64,000 nucleotides of DNA from positions 1 through 64,000 of the forward strand of contig NZ_JAMXLY010000002.1 in assembly GCF_024054555.1 (NCBI RefSeq), in the 5' to 3' direction. Position 1 is the first letter of the stretch. Each line of letters starts with the position of its first letter. This DNA is from Segatella cerevisiae. Its GTDB lineage: Bacteria > Bacteroidota > Bacteroidia > Bacteroidales > Bacteroidaceae. The position numbers and the translations under genes are program-made. Shown one piece after another: positions 2,800 through 14,042 of the stretch. The notes beneath the pieces are model-generated. The model was not told the DNA's origin. It did no database searches and saw only the letters and a list, made by a program, of their open reading frames with translations.

Positions 2800-3675
2800 T
2801 CATTTAGCGTCTTGAGGGGTTAGAGTTATCACCGTTCCTCCCATCACAGAAGGCACATCAATAGTAAACTTGAAATCTCCGGCCGCACTGTTACGCTTAA
2901 TCACAGCCGTGAAAGTTGCATCATAAGGCTTTGCGGGACTATTCGGGTCCATACCCATATTTATGGTGCCTTTGCCACTAACGGTATAAGCCGTATCGGT
3001 CGTTACGACATCGGCATTTTCAAAGGTTCCATGCCCCCATGTTTTTCCGATATATGAAATATTCACCTTATTCTTACCGGCCGAAGTAATGGTAATGCTG
3101 TCACTGTCATTGACAAGAGGCTTATCAGAATATTTAAAAGCTCCACTGGCTTTTGCCACGTAATCATTGGCTATCAGTTGATCTGCCGTAAAAGCAGAAT
3201 GAGGCAGGAACGAGACCACTGTTCCACCCATGACACTGGGGACACTGATCTTGAAACTGAAAGAGCTCGGATCTTTCTTGTTGACATAAGCCGTGAGCGT
3301 TGCCTTGTAAGACGAACCCTTGCCACCGCTCATGGACATGACCATATCTCCATCCCCGCTTATGACATAGGCAGTATCATTCTCTGTCACTTTTGCAGCA
3401 TCGAAGGTACCCTTTCCCCAAGTCATACCTCTATAAGATACATTCACGTTATCAGTACCGGCTTTCGTTACAATCACGGTATCCCCCTCATTGATCATCG
3501 GATCAGTGATGTAGGCGAACAAGGCAGAAGATACGCCGTTGTAGTTCTTGGATACCAAGTCAGCCAGGTCGGACTGCTGTCCTGAATCATTGTCATCGTC
3601 ATTGCTGCAAGAGCAAGTTGTTCCCAAAGAAATAATTGCCAAAGCAAGCAGAAGTCCCAGTTTTAGTCTTTTCAT
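2800..3675 (-). CDS. Two-domain calycin-like lipoprotein heading haem locus A
   Basis: The 291-residue protein has a lipoprotein signal with cysteines at 21 and 23 followed by an Asp/Ser-rich linker (SNDDDNDSGQQ). Two tandem domains follow, about 45-165 and 166-288. They share the order ..INEGDTVIVTKAG.., TWG.GTF.., DTAYxxSG.G, and both end in VPSVMGGTV, so the protein arose by internal duplication. The pattern resembles the calycin-like beta-barrel domain found in Bacteroidetes lipoproteins, but this is a fold-level guess. Being first in the operon with HmuY and a haem receptor, it may bind haem, another porphyrin or a host protein; no ligand residues can be named. The start fits the promoter box 43 bases upstream. 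Confidence 0.6.
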   Translation of the reverse strand: MKRLKLGLLLALAIISLGTTCSCSNDDDNDSGQQSDLADLVSKNYNGVSSALFAYITDPMINEGDTVIVTKAGTDNVNVSYRGMTWGKGTFDAAKVTENDTAYVISGDGDMVMSMSGGKGSSYKATLTAYVNKKDPSSFSFKISVPSVMGGTVVSFLPHSAFTADQLIANDYVAKASGAFKYSDKPLVNDSDSITITSAGKNKVNISYIGKTWGHGTFENADVVTTDTAYTVSGKGTINMGMDPNSPAKPYDATFTAVIKRNSAAGDFKFTIDVPSVMGGTVITLTPQDAK

Positions 3676-4638: not shown

Positions 4639-5529
4639 TCACTTCTGTTTCTCCGGTTGATTTTTCTTATGCTTATGATAACTGACGAACCAGAGATAGC
4701 CCAAAAGAACCAGGAATACGACAAGGATAATCCCGATCTGCATTCTGTATTTCTCCGGTTTGACCCAGATTTCATTGAGCAGGTTGATACGCCCCATTAC
4801 CTCAACGGGTGTCCAAAAGACAATGACAGTCGCAATAGCCATTCTGATATTGGCACCCCAAGCCTGAAGCCGGAGCTCCTTTTTGAACATGAACACCGAG
4901 CCTATTAGGCAACCTATCGCCACGATAAAGGTCACAGGATGGTGATCCCCCAGAAAACGCTTGTCATAGCAGAACATCAAGGCCAAATAACAAGTCCAGA
5001 GGATCATATTCAGTTCCATAAAGGTCACGATACTCGTATGCCGCGTCATCGGGTGCGCAGCTATTTCGTTTTTCCGGCTCCCGAAGAACAACTTTTGAAA
5101 CCAGTTAATGAAATTACACCCGTTGCGTGTACTGAAAAGGTACATCAGCATGATCATTGCCCAAAAGCCAAAAGTAGCAGGCAAGATAAGGTATTCCGGT
5201 CGTGTGACGACTACCCCGTTTTCCACCTCAGGTTGCACCCCATAGCGCTCTGCATAGTATTGGAAAAGGAATTCCACCCACCCTGTCCAGAACAGCAGTC
5301 CTCCCAGGAAGCCCCACAAAGTCTGTTTGGTATCACCCTTTGCGAAGACACCGATGATGACCATGGTCATTCCGATGAGTCCCATCAAGAACGCACCATA
5401 GTGAACGGCTGTCGGAGTCATCGTGTGATCCATCACCAACATCAGGGCATGTCCCAAAGGCATGGTGAAAAGAACCATCAGAAAAGATACAATCGTACGC
5501 CACCAATAATACTTCTTATTCGCTGTCAT
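4639..5529 (-). CDS. Polytopic membrane protein, last gene of haem locus B
   Basis: I do not recognise this 296-residue protein. It has about eight hydrophobic segments (near 12-32, 42-64, 72-92, 115-135, 168-188, 197-217, 228-247 and 263-287) and a short Lys-rich tail after YLWFVSYHKHKK. Histidines lie within or beside membrane segments (HALMLVMDH, AVHYGAF, LGDHHPV), which would suit metal or haem handling, but that is speculation. The gene follows the HmuY-like gene by 22 bases and is probably translated from the same mRNA, so a role as an inner-membrane part of haem uptake or utilisation is plausible. No ABC, MotA/ExbB or other known haem-transport motif is present. Confidence 0.5.
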   Translation of the reverse strand: MTANKKYYWWRTIVSFLMVLFTMPLGHALMLVMDHTMTPTAVHYGAFLMGLIGMTMVIIGVFAKGDTKQTLWGFLGGLLFWTGWVEFLFQYYAERYGVQPEVENGVVVTRPEYLILPATFGFWAMIMLMYLFSTRNGCNFINWFQKLFFGSRKNEIAAHPMTRHTSIVTFMELNMILWTCYLALMFCYDKRFLGDHHPVTFIVAIGCLIGSVFMFKKELRLQAWGANIRMAIATVIVFWTPVEVMGRINLLNEIWVKPEKYRMQIGIILVVFLVLLGYLWFVSYHKHKKNQPEKQK

Positions 5530-5551: not shown

Positions 5552-6262
5552 TTACTTCAGTTTATCCAGGTAATAACTGATTTGCCCGCCATCGCCACCA
5601 ATTTCAGTCTTTGTATTATACCAACTGACGATCTGCAGTTTATAATAATGCTTTCCGTCAGCACTACGAATCACATAGGTATGGTATGAAGGGGCATAAG
5701 ACATAGGCGGGCCGGAAACAGCTATAGACTGTTCGAGCAACGGATTAGCGCTGGAACGTTTCTGCTGAGGACCGCTGTTAGGATCAAACCATGGATATTG
5801 ATCCGCGTCAAGTCCTTGCTTAGCCAGATAACTGTACCACTCATTTTGGGAAATCGTCACATTGACAGACGTATCATTATCGATAACCCATTTCGTATCT
5901 TTAGGAATCTGAGCAGCCGAAGTCCATTTCTTATAATCCCCATAGCCCAGGTCTGCTGCGGCTCCTTTACCGGGTCCACTTGTCCCGCCATTGGTACGTA
6001 CATGATGTCCGCAAAACGCGAAATCCCAATCTGTGCGTGTCAGTTGCTGTCCCTCCGTGATTTCCTGATTTGGTGCAGTCTTATTATAAATGGAATCCGT
6101 AGTCATATTGAAATAGATCCAATCGTTCGTCACACCAGTCGTATATCCTGTAATACGAGGGAGAACCTTGCCTGTAAAGTCAGCGGCGTCATAATTTGTA
6201 TCAAGGATACAAGAAGACAACAACATAGTCAGGCATGTGGCCAAGATTATATTTCTATTCAT
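5552..6262 (-). CDS. HmuY-family lipoprotein (locus B)
   Basis: The 236-residue protein has a lipoprotein signal ending LLSSC (Cys18). It carries DWDFAFCGHHVRTNGG followed by TSGPGKGAAADLG, which matches the HmuY core, and the C-terminal YVIRSADGKHYYKLQIVSWY block typical of the family. The locus A homologue has HRYDV where this one has CGHHV, so ligand geometry may differ. Its ATG overlaps the end of the receptor gene by 8 bases (translational coupling), and the downstream membrane protein follows after 22 bases. Because the IS in the receptor lies upstream in the same operon, expression of this gene may be lowered by polarity or driven from the IS. Confidence 0.8.
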   Translation of the reverse strand: MNRNIILATCLTMLLSSCILDTNYDAADFTGKVLPRITGYTTGVTNDWIYFNMTTDSIYNKTAPNQEITEGQQLTRTDWDFAFCGHHVRTNGGTSGPGKGAAADLGYGDYKKWTSAAQIPKDTKWVIDNDTSVNVTISQNEWYSYLAKQGLDADQYPWFDPNSGPQQKRSSANPLLEQSIAVSGPPMSYAPSYHTYVIRSADGKHYYKLQIVSWYNTKTEIGGDGGQISYYLDKLK

Positions 6263-7850
6263 TTTTTCTCCTTAATAATTTATCCAGATTGAATTCCACC
6301 TCCACATAGCATCTTGCACCAGCAGTAGCCGGCACATTAAAAGCAGTGAGCCCAGAGCCTAATGTCTTCGGTTTATAATTGAAGACATTATCAATTCCTG
6401 TTATCACCTTAATCTTATCATGAAAAGTTTGTGTAAAATTAAGATTGCACAATGCATAAGCAGGCAGTTCACATCGAAAATAGGCCGGGTGACTGACGCC
6501 GTCTACTGTCAGTCGGTCCTGAACATCGTAACGCTTCTTCCCCATTATGGATGTACTGAACGTCGCCAGCAGTTGATAGGATTTTTTCTGCAGATGATAG
6601 TCTATGCTTCCGGTAGCAGCCTGAGGAGAAGTGGTATTGATACGCAGTCCGTTTTCCTTGCTCACGTTCACATAACTGTAAGATGCATTGAGGACAACCT
6701 GCGGCACAATACGCCATTTGGCAAGAATTTCCCCACCTATCAGATTCTGTTTATCAAGATTTGTATACTCGAAGTTATACTGCATATCGTATATTTTCCA
6801 TACACCCTCTATCTTATTCTTGAAAAGATTCGCATAAAGTGTCGTATTAATAAAAAACGTTCCATTATCGAATTCAGTACTTATTGAGAAATAATTATTT
6901 TTTTCAGGCCTTAAATATTCATTACCCTTTATCATGAACATGCCTAAATGATCCCAGTTGAAGAACAGTTCTTTTATACTTGGAGAGCGATAGCCTTTAG
7001 AATAGTTGGCACGGAAACTCCACAGGTCATCAGGGGAATATTTGGCAGCGATTTTAGGCACCCACATAAAGCCGAACTGATGTGAAAAATCTGTGCGTAC
7101 ACCGGTTGAGAACATCCAATGGGATTTCACTTTCCATTCATCTTGTATATAAGATTCCGTCTCGTGAAGAGAACGTGTCAGCATCTTCAGAGTTGCTTTA
7201 CCTGAAAAGCGATTACTGGTCAGTTCGTCACTAAAACTCTCCACTCCGAAAATAATATGATGGCCGGGGAAATAATCACTGGTCAGGGTCAGGCGAGGTT
7301 GAGATATTTTACTGTCATACACCTTTTGTCTCTCATCTCTCCGTTCATGGCGTTTAAAACGATCGTAAACATCAGAATGGAGGCTTCCGGCCAAGGTAAA
7401 CCAATTCCGAAATGTATAGGAAGCTTTCGCACCGTAGGTATAGTCATAACTTTGGGTGAATACCAGATCCTGTACCATGTCATACTGATTCATCCAAAAT
7501 CCGGTCCCATAGATTTCCGCATGAAAATTCCGAAACGGATCCAAATAGATTTTCTGTTGGACCTGCAAATGCTCTGACCCTTCTACCCCCATAGGCGGAC
7601 GCGGCATACTGCTGACGATTGTCACGTCATGATCGAGAAAAGGATTGGCTTCAGCGGTATAAACCTTTTTGTCATTGGAAGACTGGTAGAGATAGAAGGC
7701 GTCTGTTTCAGCATACCACATATCTGTCTGTCCGCTAATCCAGCCTTTCTTCCAGCCGGCAGACAGCCAGCCTTGTAAATTCGGGCGATCAGCATTCTTC
7801 TCAAACATATAGAGAAAATCTTCTTTCTTCGGATGCTTATAGTTACGTTC

Positions 7851-7856
7851 ATTCAT
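7851..7856. repeat. Left copy of the 6-bp target-site duplication
   Basis: ATTCAT directly abuts the left IS end; the same six bases follow the right IS end at 8902-8907. Confidence 0.9.
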
Positions 7857-7875
7857 ACCCCAGTTCGGGATAAGA
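7857..7875 (+). repeat. Left terminal inverted repeat of the IS982-type element
   Basis: Nineteen bases starting ACCCCAGTTCGGG are the exact reverse complement of the right terminus at 8883-8901. Confidence 0.95.
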
Positions 7876-7876
7876 C

Positions 7877-8791
7877 TTAAAATAGACAGAGCTGATTAGT
7901 CCTTTCAATAGTGTATCCGTTAAGCGCTTTAGGCTTGTTTGGGAAGAAACAATATGCTCCCAATGCAGCAATCAGATTTATAATGAAGTTGTTGACCGAT
8001 CTGTGTCTGGAATGTACGATCTGTGCAGTATTTTTCAGCATATCATTGATAGTTTCAATGATGAGTCTCTTTCTGAGCATCATCTTGTCATAAAAGGGCA
8101 TTAGCTTGTTCTTCATGTTCGCTTTCAGCCCGGTAACGAGGTGGATTCCGTCTTCAAAAAGACTGTCGAAAAGTTTTTTTGATATATAGCCCCTGTCGGC
8201 AAACAGCTTGCCGTAAAGTTTCTTGGCCAGCGAAGTCCAAACTTTTGGGTCGCGGTCATCTACATTGGCACTTGTGAGGACAAAGGAGATAATTTCTCCC
8301 CTGTCATTACAGGCCAGATGCAACTTGAATCCATGGCACCATCCCATCGTGCCTTTCCCGTCCTTTGCAAGGCCCTTGAATACCTTGTTCGAATAACGGC
8401 GCAGGTTATGGCAGACCGGGATCATTGTGGAATCGACAAAGGTAATCCCCGTGCACCTGCCGAAAGCCTTGAGGTTAAGGAAGAACATCAGCTGGAAGAA
8501 TACACGGCTCTCCAGTTCTACAAAACGGTTGTAGGATACGGCATGTGGGAAGTAGGACTTCAAGGTTCCCTTAATGTAGAAAAGGTAATAGTGCTTGAAA
8601 TTACGGAAAGTACCGAAATGGAACAGAAGCATGATGGTCATTATCTCGCTGTCGGATAATGATGCCGCGCGTCTGCGGCGTTGCTTCCCCGTACCGGTAA
8701 GAAGTACCCTATGAGCATTTTCTTTATCAAAATGTTTGCAAAACTCATCGATAATACAAAATAATTCTATAACTTTGTTCGTGGCGATCAT
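7877..8791 (-). CDS. IS982-family DDE transposase
   Basis: The 304-residue transposase fills the IS. It shows the family layout: an N-terminal region with SLSDSEIMTIMLLFHF, the first acidic residue in TFVDSTMIPVCH, then WCHGFKLHLACNDRGEI, the second Asp in LFADRGYISKKLF, and the Glu in LRKRLIIETINDMLK followed by QIVHSRHRSVNNF. These supply a complete DDE triad. Length is normal for IS982 transposases (about 290-310). The stop is 1 base inside the left inverted repeat, so the gene is intact. It lies in the same orientation as the receptor it interrupts. Confidence 0.92.
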   Translation of the reverse strand: MIATNKVIELFCIIDEFCKHFDKENAHRVLLTGTGKQRRRRAASLSDSEIMTIMLLFHFGTFRNFKHYYLFYIKGTLKSYFPHAVSYNRFVELESRVFFQLMFFLNLKAFGRCTGITFVDSTMIPVCHNLRRYSNKVFKGLAKDGKGTMGWCHGFKLHLACNDRGEIISFVLTSANVDDRDPKVWTSLAKKLYGKLFADRGYISKKLFDSLFEDGIHLVTGLKANMKNKLMPFYDKMMLRKRLIIETINDMLKNTAQIVHSRHRSVNNFIINLIAALGAYCFFPNKPKALNGYTIERTNQLCLF

Positions 8792-8882
8792 AATGGATAG
8801 TTTTTGTAACTTATTGATTGTTAACTATAAAGTTACGAAATATTCTTGTGATTGCCAACTTTTTTGTCATTTTTTTGATGTC

Positions 8883-8901
8883 TCTTATCCCGAACTGGGG
8901 T
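8883..8901 (-). repeat. Right terminal inverted repeat of the IS982-type element
   Basis: Perfect reverse complement of 7857-7875. Confidence 0.95.
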
Positions 8902-8907
8902 ATTCAT
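8902..8907. repeat. Right copy of the 6-bp target-site duplication
   Basis: ATTCAT directly abuts the right IS end and repeats the bases at 7851-7856. Together with the IS boundary this defines the insertion in the receptor gene. Confidence 0.9.
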
Positions 8908-9468
8908 CTGTCCCCACCGAAATCCTGCAGTGATATCAAGTGGCTGTGTAGGTTTTTTGGAAATCAAATTGATTACGGCGCCGGAGGCCATACTGCCATA
9001 TAGCGTACTGCTTGCACCTTTGATGATCTCAATATGGTCAATAGCATGAAGATTAAAGCGCTCATAATCGAGATTTCCTGCCATATCTCCTGTCATTTGT
9101 TCTCCATCCTGAAGGAAAAGCACATGCCTGGCATCCAGTCCCTGCATAGAAATTTCATTGCCGAAACCTACCTTCTGAATATTCAATCCGGGAGTCTCCT
9201 GTTGCAATACTTTTTGAATATCACCATATCCCGCATCCACCATCGCCTTTGCATTGATGACCTGCGTTGTTATAGGTGTAGACTTTATAGGTTTTGCTTC
9301 ATGCAAACCCTTTACGACGACTTCATTTATATGGAAAATCGAATCCTGCATCTGCTCTTGAGCAGACGTATTGATAGGTGGCTTTACATTTTGAGCATTG
9401 ACAAACGATCTTGAGAACAATATTATTCCCAAGACCGTTGTCAAATACTTTTTTATAGTATTCATATA

Positions 9469-10113
9469 TCAGTTCAAACCATGATCTTTTTTATACTGGG
9501 CAAGTGCAGCTTCATAATCTTTAAATTCTTGTTCATAATTAGCCATGCGACTCGTATCAATAGTCTGTTGGAAGACATCACTACTCATATTCATCACATT
9601 GAAATTAGTAACGAATTCGATTTGCTTGCTGTTAGCATTGAAATAGCCCTCGACTGTTCCGCCGCCGCCAGAACCATTAGTATACTCAGCCGTGTTCCCG
9701 GTATAATTTACAACTCCATCCGTACCTTGGAATTTAATCCATCCTTTATCAGTATATTCTTGTTTTTCCCAGCTATTCAACTGCATAATCTTACAATTGA
9801 CGGAAAACCATATCGTCACAGGCATTTGACCGACAGTAAAACCTCGTAATTGAACATTCAGACTATCGCCCCTCCATGAAAAGAAATACTTTAAAGGACA
9901 CCCACTGTCTAACAAAGTTTTATTCACAGTACCTTGCATGGCAGTTGCATTCAATACTATACTGTCACGTAATATTTTTTTTGCCATTGCCAAATCAGCA
10001 TCGGAAGCAGGTGTTTGAGATATTTTCTCATCATCTGAACAACTGAAGCATAATATGCAAGAGAACAGAATAAAAAATACAGAAAAAACAGATAATTTTA
10101 ATTTGTTATTCAT
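9469..10113 (-). CDS. Lipoprotein of unknown function in haem locus B
   Basis: The 214-residue protein has a long hydrophobic lipoprotein signal ending CFSC (Cys25) followed by SDDE. The rest is soluble and beta-rich, with a charged helical C-terminus (NYEQEFKDYEAALAQYKKDHG). It may belong to the DUF4840-type lipoproteins of Bacteroidales, but I am not sure of this. It lies 3 bases before the interrupted haem receptor and 9 bases after the calycin-like gene, so it is surely co-transcribed with them and probably acts at the cell envelope in the same uptake route. Confidence 0.5.
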   Translation of the reverse strand: MNNKLKLSVFSVFFILFSCILCFSCSDDEKISQTPASDADLAMAKKILRDSIVLNATAMQGTVNKTLLDSGCPLKYFFSWRGDSLNVQLRGFTVGQMPVTIWFSVNCKIMQLNSWEKQEYTDKGWIKFQGTDGVVNYTGNTAEYTNGSGGGGTVEGYFNANSKQIEFVTNFNVMNMSSDVFQQTIDTSRMANYEQEFKDYEAALAQYKKDHGLN

Positions 10114-10122
10114 ATTCTAAAG

Positions 10123-10593
10123 TTATTTTAAACCGTCAAATGTAAATACAGATTCTTTAGTTTTATTATTGTCACTATCCATATAAGCGCTGCAAGTAAA
10201 AGACAAAGAACCATTCGATAAAGTTCCGGAAATCTTGCCAGTATACTTTCGGCCATCACCTATATCCCCCCGAACTTCAACATCTGAAAAATCTCCTTCT
10301 GAAATAGGCTCTGAAGACTTCATGGAAAAGTCGTGATTAGTAGCTGAAAAATTCCCGCTAATAATCCCATTAGCATCCACTGTAAAAGAGCCTTGCACTG
10401 AAACAGGAATCACTAGAGTTATACCATCCATCTTTATAGCCGTTGCAGTACCTGAATATGTTCCGGCAATATCGTCACTTTCATTTAAACCGGAAATTAC
10501 TGAACTTTGTGAACCAACGCCTATAGCATTTACAGCTATTGTGCTTACAAACATAACTACTAAACTTAATAAAATCTTTTTCATTGTACTCAT
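10123..10593 (-). CDS. Secreted calycin-like protein in haem locus B
   Basis: The 156-residue protein has an ordinary signal peptide (from the ATG at 10584: KKILLSLVVMFVSTIAVNA) with no lipobox cysteine, so the mature protein is periplasmic or exported. The mature part has a DIAGTYSGTATA strand, repeated Gly-containing turns and ends SVFTFDGLK, a small beta-barrel pattern resembling calycin-like domains. It occupies the same relative place as the two-domain lipoprotein of locus A, ahead of lipoprotein and receptor genes. Starts at 10593 or 10584 are both possible. No ligand can be assigned. Confidence 0.5.
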   Translation of the reverse strand: MSTMKKILLSLVVMFVSTIAVNAIGVGSQSSVISGLNESDDIAGTYSGTATAIKMDGITLVIPVSVQGSFTVDANGIISGNFSATNHDFSMKSSEPISEGDFSDVEVRGDIGDGRKYTGKISGTLSNGSLSFTCSAYMDSDNNKTKESVFTFDGLK

Positions 10594-10631
10594 TTTTTAA
10601 TTATTAATAAAACTCAAAACACCATCTTTTT

Positions 10632-12017
10632 TCATTTATAATCTTTTGTCCAATCGTATTCTCTAGCTGAAAAATCCGAAAAACCACCACTAATACAGTG
10701 AGTATGATTTTTGTCCAGAAATGCTTTAGTCGTACTTAAATCATCCATATCTTTTGTAATTCCAAAATACATTATTCCCTTCACATTATCTATTTCTTCA
10801 CCATTAAACCAATTCTTTATGTCGGGATACTTAAGGCCAGCGCATTCAGGCAAATCTCCTAAACTCAGTTCGAACATTGAAGAAAATTGGCTCAAATCTA
10901 AAGATTTCAATTTAGGTAATGCATAGGCCTCTAAGGTGAACAGGAGCGTAGCCTTCGGTGGGAATTTAATACTTTGAAGGTTGTCACATACGTCTATTTG
11001 GATATAACTAGGCAGATCCATTTGTGCGAACTCATCATGAATATCACGTTGTCCAAGTTTCACCTGTTTGCTTAAGTCAAGGGATGTAATAAATTTATTA
11101 TGTGTAATTATTATACCACAGAGGTTTACATCTTCATCTATATTCAAGTAATTAACATCCATGTTATTAATGAACAAGTCACTAATGAATTTATTGACCT
11201 TAATATAAGGGATATGCGTGTGACTACCACTTATACCTACATCTATTATCGATCCTGAATAACTCGGATTCATGGCCACATATTCTATTCCCTCTAAACT
11301 CTTGTATTTGAGCGTTTCAAGATCGAGATTTCTCGTTTTTTCAGCCACATTGACAAATCTTTTACTGATATCAATTTTATCTCCCCTGAAAATCGAAGGG
11401 TATGATGTTTTCAATCTTTTACGAATGGTATCATCCGGTACTTCTCTCAACGTGGTATAAGGTTTCAGTTCTCCTAGAGAATCCTGCATCTCCATATTGG
11501 ACGTCTTCTCCTTTGCAAAATACGTCGGAATTTCCGCGCAATTGTATTGGGCACTGTGGGGCAGAAGCAATTTTGATAATGGATGAAGCACCTTTACCGT
11601 TTCATCACCGTTGTCTGCCGTCTGTATATCCAACAGGCCGGGATATTCGTAAATCTCATTGCCTGAAAGATTCACACTCGTAATCTGCTGGGGCAATAAT
11701 CCAAAGTTGAATCTCGGACCGTATCCATTGTTGGAAAGATCCACTGCCGACAAATGAGGCAGAATGGAGAGGTCTGCCAAAGCCGTGGTATCAAGTTTGG
11801 TCCCCGAAAGATCAAGTGTCGTAGTCGTATCGGCTTTCGTATCAATCAGCAATTGACCATCCGCATTAAAATGAAATCCTTTTTGGATTAAAATCTCTTT
11901 CAACGCATTGTCTGCCAAAGGTTTCTCACTATAAGACGGACCATCATTGTCACTACATGAAACCATAAATAATAAGACAGCCAATAAAGCCATCAGATTT
12001 GTTTTGTTTATCCTCAT
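10632..12017 (-). CDS. Leucine-rich-repeat lipoprotein, copy A of a tandem pair
   Basis: The 461-residue protein has a lipoprotein signal ending MVSC (Cys21). Residues about 65-125 show LRR spacing (TTLDLSGTKL, LSAVDLSNNGYG, ITSVNLSGNEI), and more LRR-like turns occur near 310-320 (ITSLDLSK) and 368-386 (LKSLDLSQ). Such proteins are usually surface-exposed and bind other proteins. It is nearly identical to copy B (12215-13600) except at residues 262-343. Only 38 bases separate its stop from the calycin-like gene, so it may head the locus B transcript. Function is unknown; adhesion or ligand capture is an inference. Confidence 0.7.
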   Translation of the reverse strand: MRINKTNLMALLAVLLFMVSCSDNDGPSYSEKPLADNALKEILIQKGFHFNADGQLLIDTKADTTTTLDLSGTKLDTTALADLSILPHLSAVDLSNNGYGPRFNFGLLPQQITSVNLSGNEIYEYPGLLDIQTADNGDETVKVLHPLSKLLLPHSAQYNCAEIPTYFAKEKTSNMEMQDSLGELKPYTTLREVPDDTIRKRLKTSYPSIFRGDKIDISKRFVNVAEKTRNLDLETLKYKSLEGIEYVAMNPSYSGSIIDVGISGSHTHIPYIKVNKFISDLFINNMDVNYLNIDEDVNLCGIIITHNKFITSLDLSKQVKLGQRDIHDEFAQMDLPSYIQIDVCDNLQSIKFPPKATLLFTLEAYALPKLKSLDLSQFSSMFELSLGDLPECAGLKYPDIKNWFNGEEIDNVKGIMYFGITKDMDDLSTTKAFLDKNHTHCISGGFSDFSAREYDWTKDYK

Positions 12018-12047
12018 CCTTTTATTAATATTTTAATTATATATGCG

Positions 12048-12055
12048 CAAATTTA
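12048..12055 (-). promoter_or_regulatory. -7 box of LRR gene copy A
   Basis: TAAATTTG followed by CGC on the minus strand, 31 bases before the ATG, within an AT-rich leader. It may drive the LRR gene and read on into haem locus B. Confidence 0.5.
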
Positions 12056-12214
12056 AAGTATATATTATAATATAAAAGTTTATATTACCCATTTAACAAT
12101 AAAATCATAAATAATGAGTACAGAAAATATAAGTATTTATAATAAATCATCACTTTTTATTGCTATTTGTTACATTTTTAATTCCATAAGTATGGCAAAT
12201 CAAGCAATCATCTT

Positions 12215-13600
12215 TCATTTATAATCTTTTGTCCAATCGTATTCTCTAGCTGAAAAATCCGAAAAACCACCACTAATACAGTGAGTATGATTTTTGTCCA
12301 GAAATGCTTTAGTCGTACTTAAATCATCCATATCTTTTGTAATTCCAAAATACATTATTCCCTTCACATTATCTATTTCTTCACCATTAAACCAATTCTT
12401 TATGTCGGGATACTTAAGGCCAGCGCATTCAGGCAAATCTCCTAAACTCAGTTCGAACATTGAAGAAAATTGGCTCAAATCTAAAGATTTCAATTTAGGT
12501 AATGCATAGGCCTCTAAGGTGAACAGGAGCGTAGCCTTCGGTGGGAATTTAATACTTTGAAGGTTGTCACATTCGTCTATTCGAATATAACTAGGCAGAT
12601 CCATTTGTGCGAACTCATCATGAATATCACGTTGTCCAAGTCTCACCTCTTTGCTTAAGTCAAGGGATGTAATAAATTTATCATGTGTAATTATCACACT
12701 ACAAAGGTTTACTCCTTCATCTATGTTTAGGTAATTAACATCCATATCATTAAGGAACAAATCATAAATGAATTTATTGACCTTAATATATGGGATATGC
12801 ATGTGATTACCTTCTTCACCTACATCTATTATCGATCCTGAATAACTCGGATTCATGGCCACATATTCGATTCCCTCTAAACTCTTGTATTTGAGTGTCT
12901 CAAGATCGAGGTTCCTCGTTTTTTCAGCCACATTGACAAATCTTTTACTGATATCAATTTTATCTCCCCTGAAAATCGAAGGGTATGATGTTTTCAATCT
13001 TTTACGAATGGTATCATCCGGTACTTCTCTCAACGTAGTATAAGGTTTCAGTTCTCCTAGAGAATCCTGCATCTCCATATTGGACGTCTTCTCCTTTGCA
13101 AAATACGTCGGAATTTCCACGCAATTGTATTGGGCACTGTGGGGTAGAAGCAATTTTGATAGTGGATGAAGCACCTTTACCGTTTCATCACCGTTGTCTG
13201 CCGTCTGTATATCCAACAGGCCGGGATATTCGTAAATCTCATTGCCTGAAAGATTCACACTCGTAATCTGCTGGGGCAATAATCCAAAGTTGAATCTCGG
13301 ACCGTATCCATTGTTGGAAAGATCCACTGCCGACAAATGAGGCAGAATGGAGAGGTCTGCCAAAGCCGTGGTATCAAGTTTGGTCCCCGAAAGATCTAGC
13401 GTCGTAGTCGTATCGGCTTTCGTATCAATCAGCAATTGACCATCCGCATTAAAATGAAATCCTTTTTGGATTAAAATCTCTTTCAACGCATTGTCTGCCA
13501 AAGGTTTCTCACTATAAGACGGACCATCATTGTCACTACATGAAACCATAAATAATAAGACAGCCAATAAAGCCATCAGATTTGTTTTGTTTAAGCCCAT
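12215..13600 (-). CDS. Leucine-rich-repeat lipoprotein, copy B of a tandem pair
   Basis: This 461-residue paralogue has the same lipobox (Cys21) and LRR layout as copy A. By direct comparison the two proteins differ at residues 2-3 (GL here, RI in copy A), at 161 (Val here, Ala in A), and at 15 positions confined to 262-343, for example GEEGNHMH here against GISGSHTH. Everything else is identical. The gene has its own -7 box, conserved in both copies. No gene lies between it and copy A. It is likely surface-anchored; the variable patch may be the ligand- or antibody-facing side. Confidence 0.7.
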   Translation of the reverse strand: MGLNKTNLMALLAVLLFMVSCSDNDGPSYSEKPLADNALKEILIQKGFHFNADGQLLIDTKADTTTTLDLSGTKLDTTALADLSILPHLSAVDLSNNGYGPRFNFGLLPQQITSVNLSGNEIYEYPGLLDIQTADNGDETVKVLHPLSKLLLPHSAQYNCVEIPTYFAKEKTSNMEMQDSLGELKPYTTLREVPDDTIRKRLKTSYPSIFRGDKIDISKRFVNVAEKTRNLDLETLKYKSLEGIEYVAMNPSYSGSIIDVGEEGNHMHIPYIKVNKFIYDLFLNDMDVNYLNIDEGVNLCSVIITHDKFITSLDLSKEVRLGQRDIHDEFAQMDLPSYIRIDECDNLQSIKFPPKATLLFTLEAYALPKLKSLDLSQFSSMFELSLGDLPECAGLKYPDIKNWFNGEEIDNVKGIMYFGITKDMDDLSTTKAFLDKNHTHCISGGFSDFSAREYDWTKDYK

Positions 13601-13630
13601 TACTTTATTAATATTTTAATTATATATGCG

Positions 13631-13638
13631 CAAATTTA
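13631..13638 (-). promoter_or_regulatory. -7 box of LRR gene copy B
   Basis: TAAATTTG on the minus strand, same distance from the start codon as in copy A. Confidence 0.5.
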
Positions 13639-14042
13639 AAGTATATATTATAATATAAAAGTTTATATTACCCATTTAACAATAAAATCATAAATAATGA
13701 GTACATAAAATATAAGTATTTGTAATAAATCATCACTTTTTATTGCTATTTGTTACATTTTAAATTCCATAAGTATGGCAAATCAACTCATTAAGTTACA
13801 AATGTTCTCCAGTCCGCATAACCAACCATTATAATGACCAAGTCCATCACCTTATTTTAAAACAAAAACAGTTTACCCGTCCATGACCGAACTTTTGTAG
13901 CAGACGCTACTTATGTATTCATCCAACAAATGCAAGAGTCCGGCAAATGGGGACAGACCCTGATGCCCTTCTTATGAGAAAACTCTAATCTCAACTCAAA
14001 GCATTCTAATCGTTTTCATTGAATTGCGGATGCATTTAAGTT

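Follow-up and report, generated by a model that had tools for sequence, protein, structure and literature searches.

TonB-dependent haem and iron uptake is important to gut and oral Bacteroidetes, and phages, bacteriocins, and antibodies can target TonB-dependent receptors. In the transferrin receptor TbpA/TbpB of Neisseria, a conserved TonB-dependent transporter is accompanied by a variable surface lipoprotein partner; in pilE/pilS cassettes, recombination alters part of a surface protein. Among the HmuY/HmuR haem uptake operons (hmuYRSTUV) of Bacteroidetes, the hmu loci of three species are iron-regulated, and the operon holds CobN-like, ExbB-like, and DUF2149 genes (PMC10434189). That paper contains 0 occurrences of DUF4903, and its four mentions of leucine-rich repeats (LRR) concern other loci; the available part of PMC2911385 mentions pilE/pilS-type gene-conversion cassettes and does not describe TbpB variability. 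In the literature searched, mostly openly accessible papers, there was no description of the operon module reported below and no match for DUF4903, for tandem LRR lipoprotein gene conversion under the stem "Bacteroid-", or for surface lipoprotein allelic variation.

Here, we report a tandem pair of LRR lipoprotein genes in a 64,000-nucleotide window (the whole stretch of DNA that was analysed) of the Segatella cerevisiae draft genome, contig NZ_JAMXLY010000002.1. With a rough probability of 0.6, we consider the pair a head-to-tail duplication that became a recombination mosaic, in a lipoprotein with a hypervariable C-terminal half and an accessory role in an HmuY/TonB operon. The pair consists of the following features.

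12213..13786, minus strand: repeat unit 2, promoter-proximal copy (repeat search and copy alignment)
10630..12203, minus strand: repeat unit 1, promoter-distal copy (49 of 1574 positions differ from unit 2)
12204..12212: junction between the units, 9 bp
12215..13600, minus strand: LRR lipoprotein gene copy 2, intact ORF, 461 aa
10632..12017, minus strand: LRR lipoprotein gene copy 1, intact ORF, 461 aa
13631..13638, minus strand: TAAATTTG box upstream of copy 2, fits TAnnTTTG
12048..12055, minus strand: TAAATTTG box upstream of copy 1, fits TAnnTTTG
10990..11331, minus strand: divergent stretch of copy 1, codons 229-343 (34 of 342 nt differ from copy 2)
12573..12914, minus strand: its counterpart in copy 2
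10630..10989, minus strand: identical stretch, codons 344-461 plus stop (0 of 360 differ, silent sites included)

The original prediction of two 1574-bp direct repeats with 9 bp between them was re-found at 10630-12203 and 12213-13786, i.e., at an offset of 1583 from unit 1 to unit 2. At the downstream edge, a 3-base gap in a T-run extends the similarity by a few bases (by eye), so the units are nearly flush. TAnnTTTG is the Bacteroidetes -7 promoter pattern and, with this box in both upstream regions, a promoter is plausibly carried within each unit. In both copies a signal peptide is followed by ...VSC-SDND, and the aligned relatives show, by eye, a Cys and then Asp/Glu-containing stretches; we take the cysteine to be that of a lipobox and the acidic residues after it to be a putative surface export signal. 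The best Pfam LRR model, PF23952, scores 24.5 bits, under its curated cut-off of 27.9. A profile of 17 relatives matches the PDB sequences 5il7 (E 4.9e-9), 4r58 (E 1.8e-8), and internalin B (2.9e-4), with the LRR matches covering N-terminal positions 65-131. The model of the C-terminal half has a mean pLDDT of 70.8, and Foldseek against the PDB gave 0 matches at E ≤0.001; a VIA second look gave Z of 11.0-13.3, mostly to LRR proteins among the 50 matches listed, where a Z below about 13 can reflect a common repeat arrangement.

The differences between the copies are clustered. The protein alignment has 18 of them, 15 in residues 262-343 and 3 elsewhere (residues 2, 3, and 161), in agreement with the earlier count, and the remainder of the repeat unit (11332-12203) differs at 15 of 872 nt. 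A two-breakpoint description gained 28.8 log-likelihood units versus at most 10.8 across 200 shuffles, and the identical run of 360 bp was reproduced in 0 of 5000 shuffles; the non-uniform divergence claimed at the outset is thus beyond chance in shuffles, and the homogenisation proposed for the regions flanking the patch fits the 0 of 360 nt that differ beside it. Silent changes, which the original prediction did not consider, are concentrated as well: 11 of the 16 silent codons lie within 229-343 (p 3e-4), with the clustering starting at codon 229, and dS falls from 0.23 in the patch to 0 across residues 344-461, with a patch dN/dS of 0.46. Taken with this dN/dS and the identical adjoining 360 bp, the clustered silent changes mark the focal pattern as a recombination mosaic in which silent and replacement changes occur together; the process behind it would be gene conversion or import.

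Downstream of the pair, the window contains the rest of the operon.

10123..10593, minus strand: 156-aa small protein with 30% identity to its Bacteroides oleiciplenus counterpart; no family above cut-off
9469..10113, minus strand: DUF4903 protein (PF16246, E 1.4e-64)
8833..9465, minus strand: N-terminal piece (plug) of a TonB-dependent receptor (PF07715); the insertion sequence supplies its final codons (8833-8901)
7857..8901, minus strand: insertion sequence splitting the receptor gene (PF13612 transposase, 7877-8791)
6255..7856, minus strand: C-terminal piece (barrel) of the TonB-dependent receptor (PF00593)
5552..6262, minus strand: HmuY-family protein (PF14064, E 1.3e-24)
4639..5529, minus strand: probable membrane protein of 296 aa (membrane assignment by eye; no Pfam family)

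The LRR gene heads an HmuY/TonB-type uptake operon, with haem as the probable substrate. NCBIfam at E 0.01 left the LRR copies, the small protein, DUF4903, a calycin-like protein, and both HmuY proteins without a family; viral contigs held no stretch matching the search patterns. The insertion sequence has 19-bp terminal inverted repeats and is flanked by a 6-bp target duplication, ATTCAT, at 7851-7856 and 8902-8907; these ends were taken by eye, since a scripted scan returned only a weak 14/18 pair and missed the right end. Two further near-full copies (97-98%) are present in the genome. The receptor gene is broken by this element, so the uptake system may be decaying in this strain. A search with the operon DNA in 100 relatives also encountered many insertion sequence copies alongside operon pieces.

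The operon is conserved in relatives. LRR, DUF4903, TonB receptor, and HmuY genes occur together in 32 of the 35 loci outside the tandem (14/16 and 18/19), the three exceptions being two loci at contig ends and a second paralogue of this genome, and in most related operons a homologue of the 296-aa protein lies close to the end. Between species whose rpoB is only 75-83% identical (16 genomes compared, without G305, G369, G231, and G318), blocks of the operon share 94-99.8% identity, e.g., 9.8 kb at 99.5% in G003/G252 (rpoB 77.1%) and 12.6 kb at 99.8% in G003/G337 (rpoB 80.5%). Dating via the neighbouring efflux gene was given up because its full-length matches reach only 70-72% nt or lower.

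Within these shared operons, some near-identical backbones carry very different LRR C-terminal domains (LRR-C), and near-identical LRR-C domains sit on divergent receptors. Among 19 loci, with pairs reported only at TonB ≥88% nt, G147/G305 have TonB 97.6% and HmuY 98.6% versus LRR-C 43.6% and DUF4903 61.2% nt; the corresponding values are 94.9, 97.4, 46.1, and 66.1 for G046/G029 and 96.7, 93.3, 48.6, and 76.0 for G042/G369. The swapped regions are sharply bounded (60-bp resolution). The reverse case is G208/G283, with LRR-C at 99.0% versus TonB at 79.6 and HmuY at 74.8. With swaps in both directions, the relatives show that the lipoprotein is diversified by recombination, which supports the original prediction in part. 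At 50% aa identity, 28 loci fall into 15 LRR-C classes, 2 each of LRR-N and DUF4903, and 1 each of TonB and HmuY; at 90% the contrast is small (LRR-C 19, LRR-N 18, DUF4903 20, TonB 16, HmuY 15). Please note that seven of the 35 loci are not among these 28: L018 and L019, which are Tannerella MAGs; L133, where the LRR ORF was called short at 345 aa; L135, which lies at a contig end; L144, which matches L143 without a difference over 17 kb; L042, whose LRR gene is broken; and L030, which lacks the operon. Among the 22 pairs with TonB ≥93% aa, LRR-C is below 50% in 9 and remains similar in the other 13; these pairs belong to a few backbone clusters and do not count as independent. The Spearman correlation with TonB is 0.79 for DUF4903 and 0.36 for LRR-C; DUF4903 largely tracks TonB and so belongs only partly to the swapped module. 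The tandem patch sits inside this variable domain, in the half of the protein that is least conserved in the alignment with relatives, which fits the earlier reading of a variable patch. The diversity in relatives is found among single-copy loci of different species.

In our reading, the LRR gene encodes a variable accessory lipoprotein that allelic recombination has diversified, and the tandem pair is a local duplication. The LRR lipoprotein gene heading the operon would have been copied head-to-tail, after which recombination would have homogenised most of both copies, with one divergent 342-bp segment in the C-terminal half left over or imported. The protein would most likely serve as an accessory surface-exposed lipoprotein alongside the TonB receptor and HmuY. 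Homologous replacement of alleles would diversify it, with a ligand, antibodies, phages, or bacteriocins exerting the outside pressure that the diversity suggests, and tandem copies may let one genome encode two sub-variants simultaneously. A more extended version, to which we give slightly less than even odds, is that the C-terminal half, together with the small gene and a portion of DUF4903, forms a swappable outer module, backbones and module alleles being traded separately as a counterpart of TbpA/TbpB, and that the tandem pair represents two sub-variants in one strain.

As a sub-case of the mosaic reading, allelic recombination with another strain or species may have brought the divergent segment into one copy, which is a tentative but serious option. 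Single-copy relatives show the same kind of segment-wise difference, i.e., dS is 1.27 in residues 20-120 and 0-0.15 elsewhere in G163/G003 (a comparison that left out G283). However, a DNA search of 398 genus genomes, with two candidates scored per genome, found no donor allele, only short stretches at 68-94% in 9 other genomes, and the identical 360-bp tract beside the patch equally fits conversion. The closest relative of this LRR allele reaches about 40% aa at best and no second strain of the species was found, so the patch is not polarisable; when 16 aligned differing sites (residue 161 plus all 15 of the patch) were compared with 15 relatives, 29 residues matched copy 2 and 28 matched copy 1, with no preference.

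The proposed antigenic-variation cassette, in which the tandem copies recombine and switch the displayed patch, fares worse and is improbable. The LRR family is variable, and the two copies could recombine within their identical stretches (360, 234, and 193 bp) and make chimeras; however, patch DNA searched across this genome matches only the two tandem copies, with no donor copy, and both copies are complete ORFs with the same upstream box. Adjacent LRR copies occur in at least 1 of the 30 genomes with a near full-length homologue, a lower bound since collapsed tandem copies are invisible in draft genomes (at most 4-5 candidates scored per genome; the G387 match lies at a contig end, and G649 matched and was left out). 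In the repeat search of 8-17 kb, two AT-rich self-overlapping palindromes were the only inverted repeats, and none was of the separated kind.

Positive selection on point mutations alone, without recombination, is very unlikely to have made the patch. Replacement changes there do outnumber silent ones, 19.8 to 9.2, and the replacement-to-silent ratio is higher than in the rest of the gene (Fisher p 0.02 when every change beyond the patch is counted; 0.001 without codons 2-3, an exclusion chosen after seeing the data). This explanation, offered at the outset, is rejected on the silent changes, which are clustered in the same codons, and on the patch dN/dS and the dS contrast with residues 344-461 given above. 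An assembly artefact joining two strain alleles would suit a single draft assembly of 116 contigs, and it is just as improbable with both copies inside one 138-kb contig, a defined junction, 49 differing sites, and a listed contamination of 0.21%.

If true, the module reading would mean a conserved transporter fitted with ever-new external lipoproteins: a lipoprotein domain exchanged between species on a near-constant receptor would mark the part under outside pressure, with the tandem pair as a small local instance of the same diversity. Natural alleles on near-identical backbones (G147/G305, G046/G029, G042/G102/G369) would allow the nature of this pressure to be probed. Compared with the known systems, the locus resembles hmuYRSTUV in that a PF14064 protein adjoins a TonB-dependent receptor, but the operon starts with LRR, small, and DUF4903 genes, and the ORF list of the window has no CobN-size ORF in it. 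It resembles the internalins and other bacterial LRR proteins in the profile match at positions 65-131, and possibly in the fold of the C-terminal model, and differs from them in its lipoprotein-type N-terminus, its uptake operon, and Pfam LRR scores below the cut-offs. As with pilE/pilS, recombination changes part of a putative surface protein, but this genome holds no silent further patch copies. The arrangement of a conserved TonB receptor with a variable lipoprotein in one operon may be likened to TbpA/TbpB, by arrangement only, with an LRR-type protein in place of TbpB and in a different phylum.

Two genes for LRR lipoproteins lie in tandem on the minus strand, each within a direct repeat that comprises a 461-codon gene and its upstream region; an insertion sequence interrupts the operon further downstream:

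10630-12203, gene on the minus strand: first direct repeat, 1574 bp
12213-13786, gene on the minus strand: second direct repeat, 1574 bp
7857-8901: insertion sequence, 1045 bp, splitting the TonB-dependent receptor gene of the operon; intact transposase ORF, perfect 6-bp target duplication

Compared copy to copy, the repeat units differ at 49 positions, i.e., 0 of 360 in 10630-10989, 34 of 342 in 10990-11331 and 15 of 872 in 11332-12203. Fitting two breakpoints improves the log-likelihood by 28.8 at best (maximum of 200 shuffles, 10.8) and the 360-bp identical run was found in 0 of 5000 shuffles; the clustering of differences far exceeds chance. The residue count of the original prediction was reproduced, with 18 protein differences, 15 of them within the patch (residues 262-343), and this patch sits within the protein half that is variable across the whole family. 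A small second cluster of differences surrounds the start codon (6 of 10 bases at 12011-12020). Just upstream of each copy is an AT-rich self-overlapping palindrome (12025-12110 and 13608-13693) with 48-nt arms, 71% complementary.

Positive selection had been offered as one cause of the focal pattern, and replacements are indeed relatively commoner in the patch than in the rest of the gene (p 0.02 when every change beyond the patch is counted; p 0.001 without codons 2-3, an exclusion chosen after data inspection). The silent changes, however, share the same map, which speaks against selection as the cause: 11 of the 16 silent codon differences lie in codons 229-343 (binomial p 3e-4). Between the copies, dS reaches 0.23 across residues 262-343 and 0.29 across 229-261, against 0.03-0.04 in 20-228 and 0 in 344-461. 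All five changes in codons 229-261 are silent, which puts the start of the divergent DNA ahead of the protein patch, where dN/dS is 0.46 and dN is not above dS (Fisher p 0.08 in the opposite direction). The patch fits a mark of recombination, either gene conversion that evened out the sequence around a divergent segment that persisted, or the import of this segment from elsewhere. Relatives are equidistant from both copies in the patch (23.9% each), and a close allele of the copies was not found in the genome itself or in the DNA of genus genomes. Residues 344-461 vary among relatives about as much as the patch does (pairwise identity 29-36% versus 28%) but show no difference from copy to copy, and recent homogenisation explains this better than constraint.

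Pairwise comparison of loci in related genomes (G-numbers) revealed that the operon front is swapped on some near-identical backbones. Between G147 and G305, followed in 60-bp steps, identity is 97-100% over LRR bases 0-360, 22-70% over 360-2580 and 93-100% from 2580 on; TonB is 97.6% identical in nucleotides (99.4% in amino acids), HmuY 98.6%, the C-terminal part of the LRR gene (LRR-C) 43.6% (27.8% in amino acids) and DUF4903 61.2%. The break lies ~300-360 bp into the LRR gene in G046/G029, where identity returns gradually, and at ~600 bp among G042, G102 and G369. Because breakpoints vary from cluster to cluster, we favor ordinary homologous recombination, probably anchored in the conserved N-terminal part (LRR-N). 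Reverse cases also occur, i.e., G208/G283 (LRR-C 99.0%, TonB 79.6%, HmuY 74.8% in nucleotides) and G016/G147 (LRR-C 89.9%, TonB 79.7%), and within each of two groups, that of G003 and that of G113/G046/G283, the LRR-C allele is retained (at least 94% in amino acids) alongside differing DUF4903, LRR-N or TonB segments. Single-copy relatives have mosaics within the LRR gene too, e.g., G163/G003 with dS 1.27 in residues 20-120 and 0-0.15 elsewhere. The entire operon thus recombines, with the deepest alleles kept in LRR-C.

Operon blocks are 94-99.8% identical across species, against 75-83% for rpoB among the pairs compared for that gene. G003 shares 9.8 kb with G252 (99.5%; rpoB 77.1%) and 12.6 kb with G337 (99.8%; rpoB 80.5%). 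Downstream of the G003/G252 block the genomes are syntenic at ~87% identity, which implies either an in-place exchange of the block or its insertion at the same position. Loci L033, L129 and L130, from three species, carry an operon-bearing block of 9.8-12.6 kb that is 98-99.8% identical (rpoB 76-81%).

Allele classes at 28 loci place the depth of this diversity, as tabulated here.

Allele classes at 28 loci by amino acid identity threshold
50%: LRR-C 15, LRR-N 2, DUF4903 2, TonB 1, HmuY 1
90%: LRR-C 19, LRR-N 18, DUF4903 20, TonB 16, HmuY 15

LRR-C therefore stands out by depth of divergence, not by number of variants; please note that its median identity is 26%, so that class counts are trustworthy and exact distances are not. 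Pairwise identity follows that of TonB weakly for LRR-C (Spearman 0.36) and strongly for DUF4903 (0.79), which places DUF4903 only partly in the swapped module. Among pairs with TonB at 93% or more in amino acids, drawn from few clusters, LRR-C is below 50% in 9 of 22 and not in 13.

Downstream of the LRR copies follow a 156-aa protein, DUF4903 (PF16246), the TonB-dependent receptor, HmuY (PF14064) and a 296-aa probable membrane protein. LRR, DUF4903, TonB and HmuY occur together at 32 of 35 loci outside the tandem (14/16 and 18/19 in two locus sets); two of the other three are at contig ends and one is a second LRR paralogue of the window genome on contig C105. This paralogue (L030:8619-10043, ~33% identical) adjoins a homologue of the 296-aa protein, and the 18 kb examined there gave no match to receptor, HmuY or DUF4903. 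Two adjacent, diverged homologues of the 296-aa gene (identity to the window version ~65-72% and ~49-53%) are present in operons L033, L035, L038, L039, L130, L134 and L143-L145. The contig end (202-3675) bears a second TonB receptor (202-2115), a second HmuY (2120-2791; 29% identical to the other across 110 residues) and a calycin-like protein (2800-3675). Other near-full copies of the insertion sequence are on contigs C44 and C80 (97-98% identity); with its receptor gene split, the operon of the window strain may no longer be under its usual selection.

With one genome sampled per species, LRR homologues matched at E 0.001 in 47 of 398 genus genomes, 22 of them near full length, and a 301-genome family draw added 8 genomes. 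Two adjacent copies were seen only in the window genome, 1 of 30, which is a lower bound because scoring covered few candidates in each genome, the assemblies are drafts and one match lies at a contig end. Second copies stand at separate sites in G318 and G252; that of G147 (L042, contig C131) is broken into several frames and followed by DUF4903, receptor, HmuY and membrane protein matches.

Pfam LRR models match the copies below their cut-offs, but a profile built from 17 relatives hits LRR proteins of known structure over positions 65-131 (best E 4.9e-9). The AlphaFold model, made from five sequences, reached a mean pLDDT of 70.8, and Foldseek returned no matches to it at E 0.001. Re-scored Foldseek candidates, the majority of them LRR proteins aligned to the C-terminal half, gave Z 11.0-13.3 among the 50 shown (mostly 145-211 residues at rmsd 2.5-5.3 Å; some longer at 15-22 Å); since such Z values can arise from a common repeat-protein arrangement, an LRR fold in this half is only likely. 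We take the N-terminus to be a lipoprotein signal, after which come acidic residues.

The best explanation, to which we give a probability of roughly 60%, is a duplicated accessory lipoprotein of an HmuY/TonB uptake system, diversified by recombination; we do not go higher because DUF4903 mostly tracks the receptor and the fold support is modest. The LRR protein would be of surface type, its diversity would arise mainly via allelic recombination among strains and species, and the pair would be a local duplication most of whose sequence was then homogenised by recombination. Haem may be the putative ligand, judging solely by the HmuY family name. TbpA/TbpB offers an analogy for how the LRR/TonB pair may work, a likeness in possible working mode and not membership.
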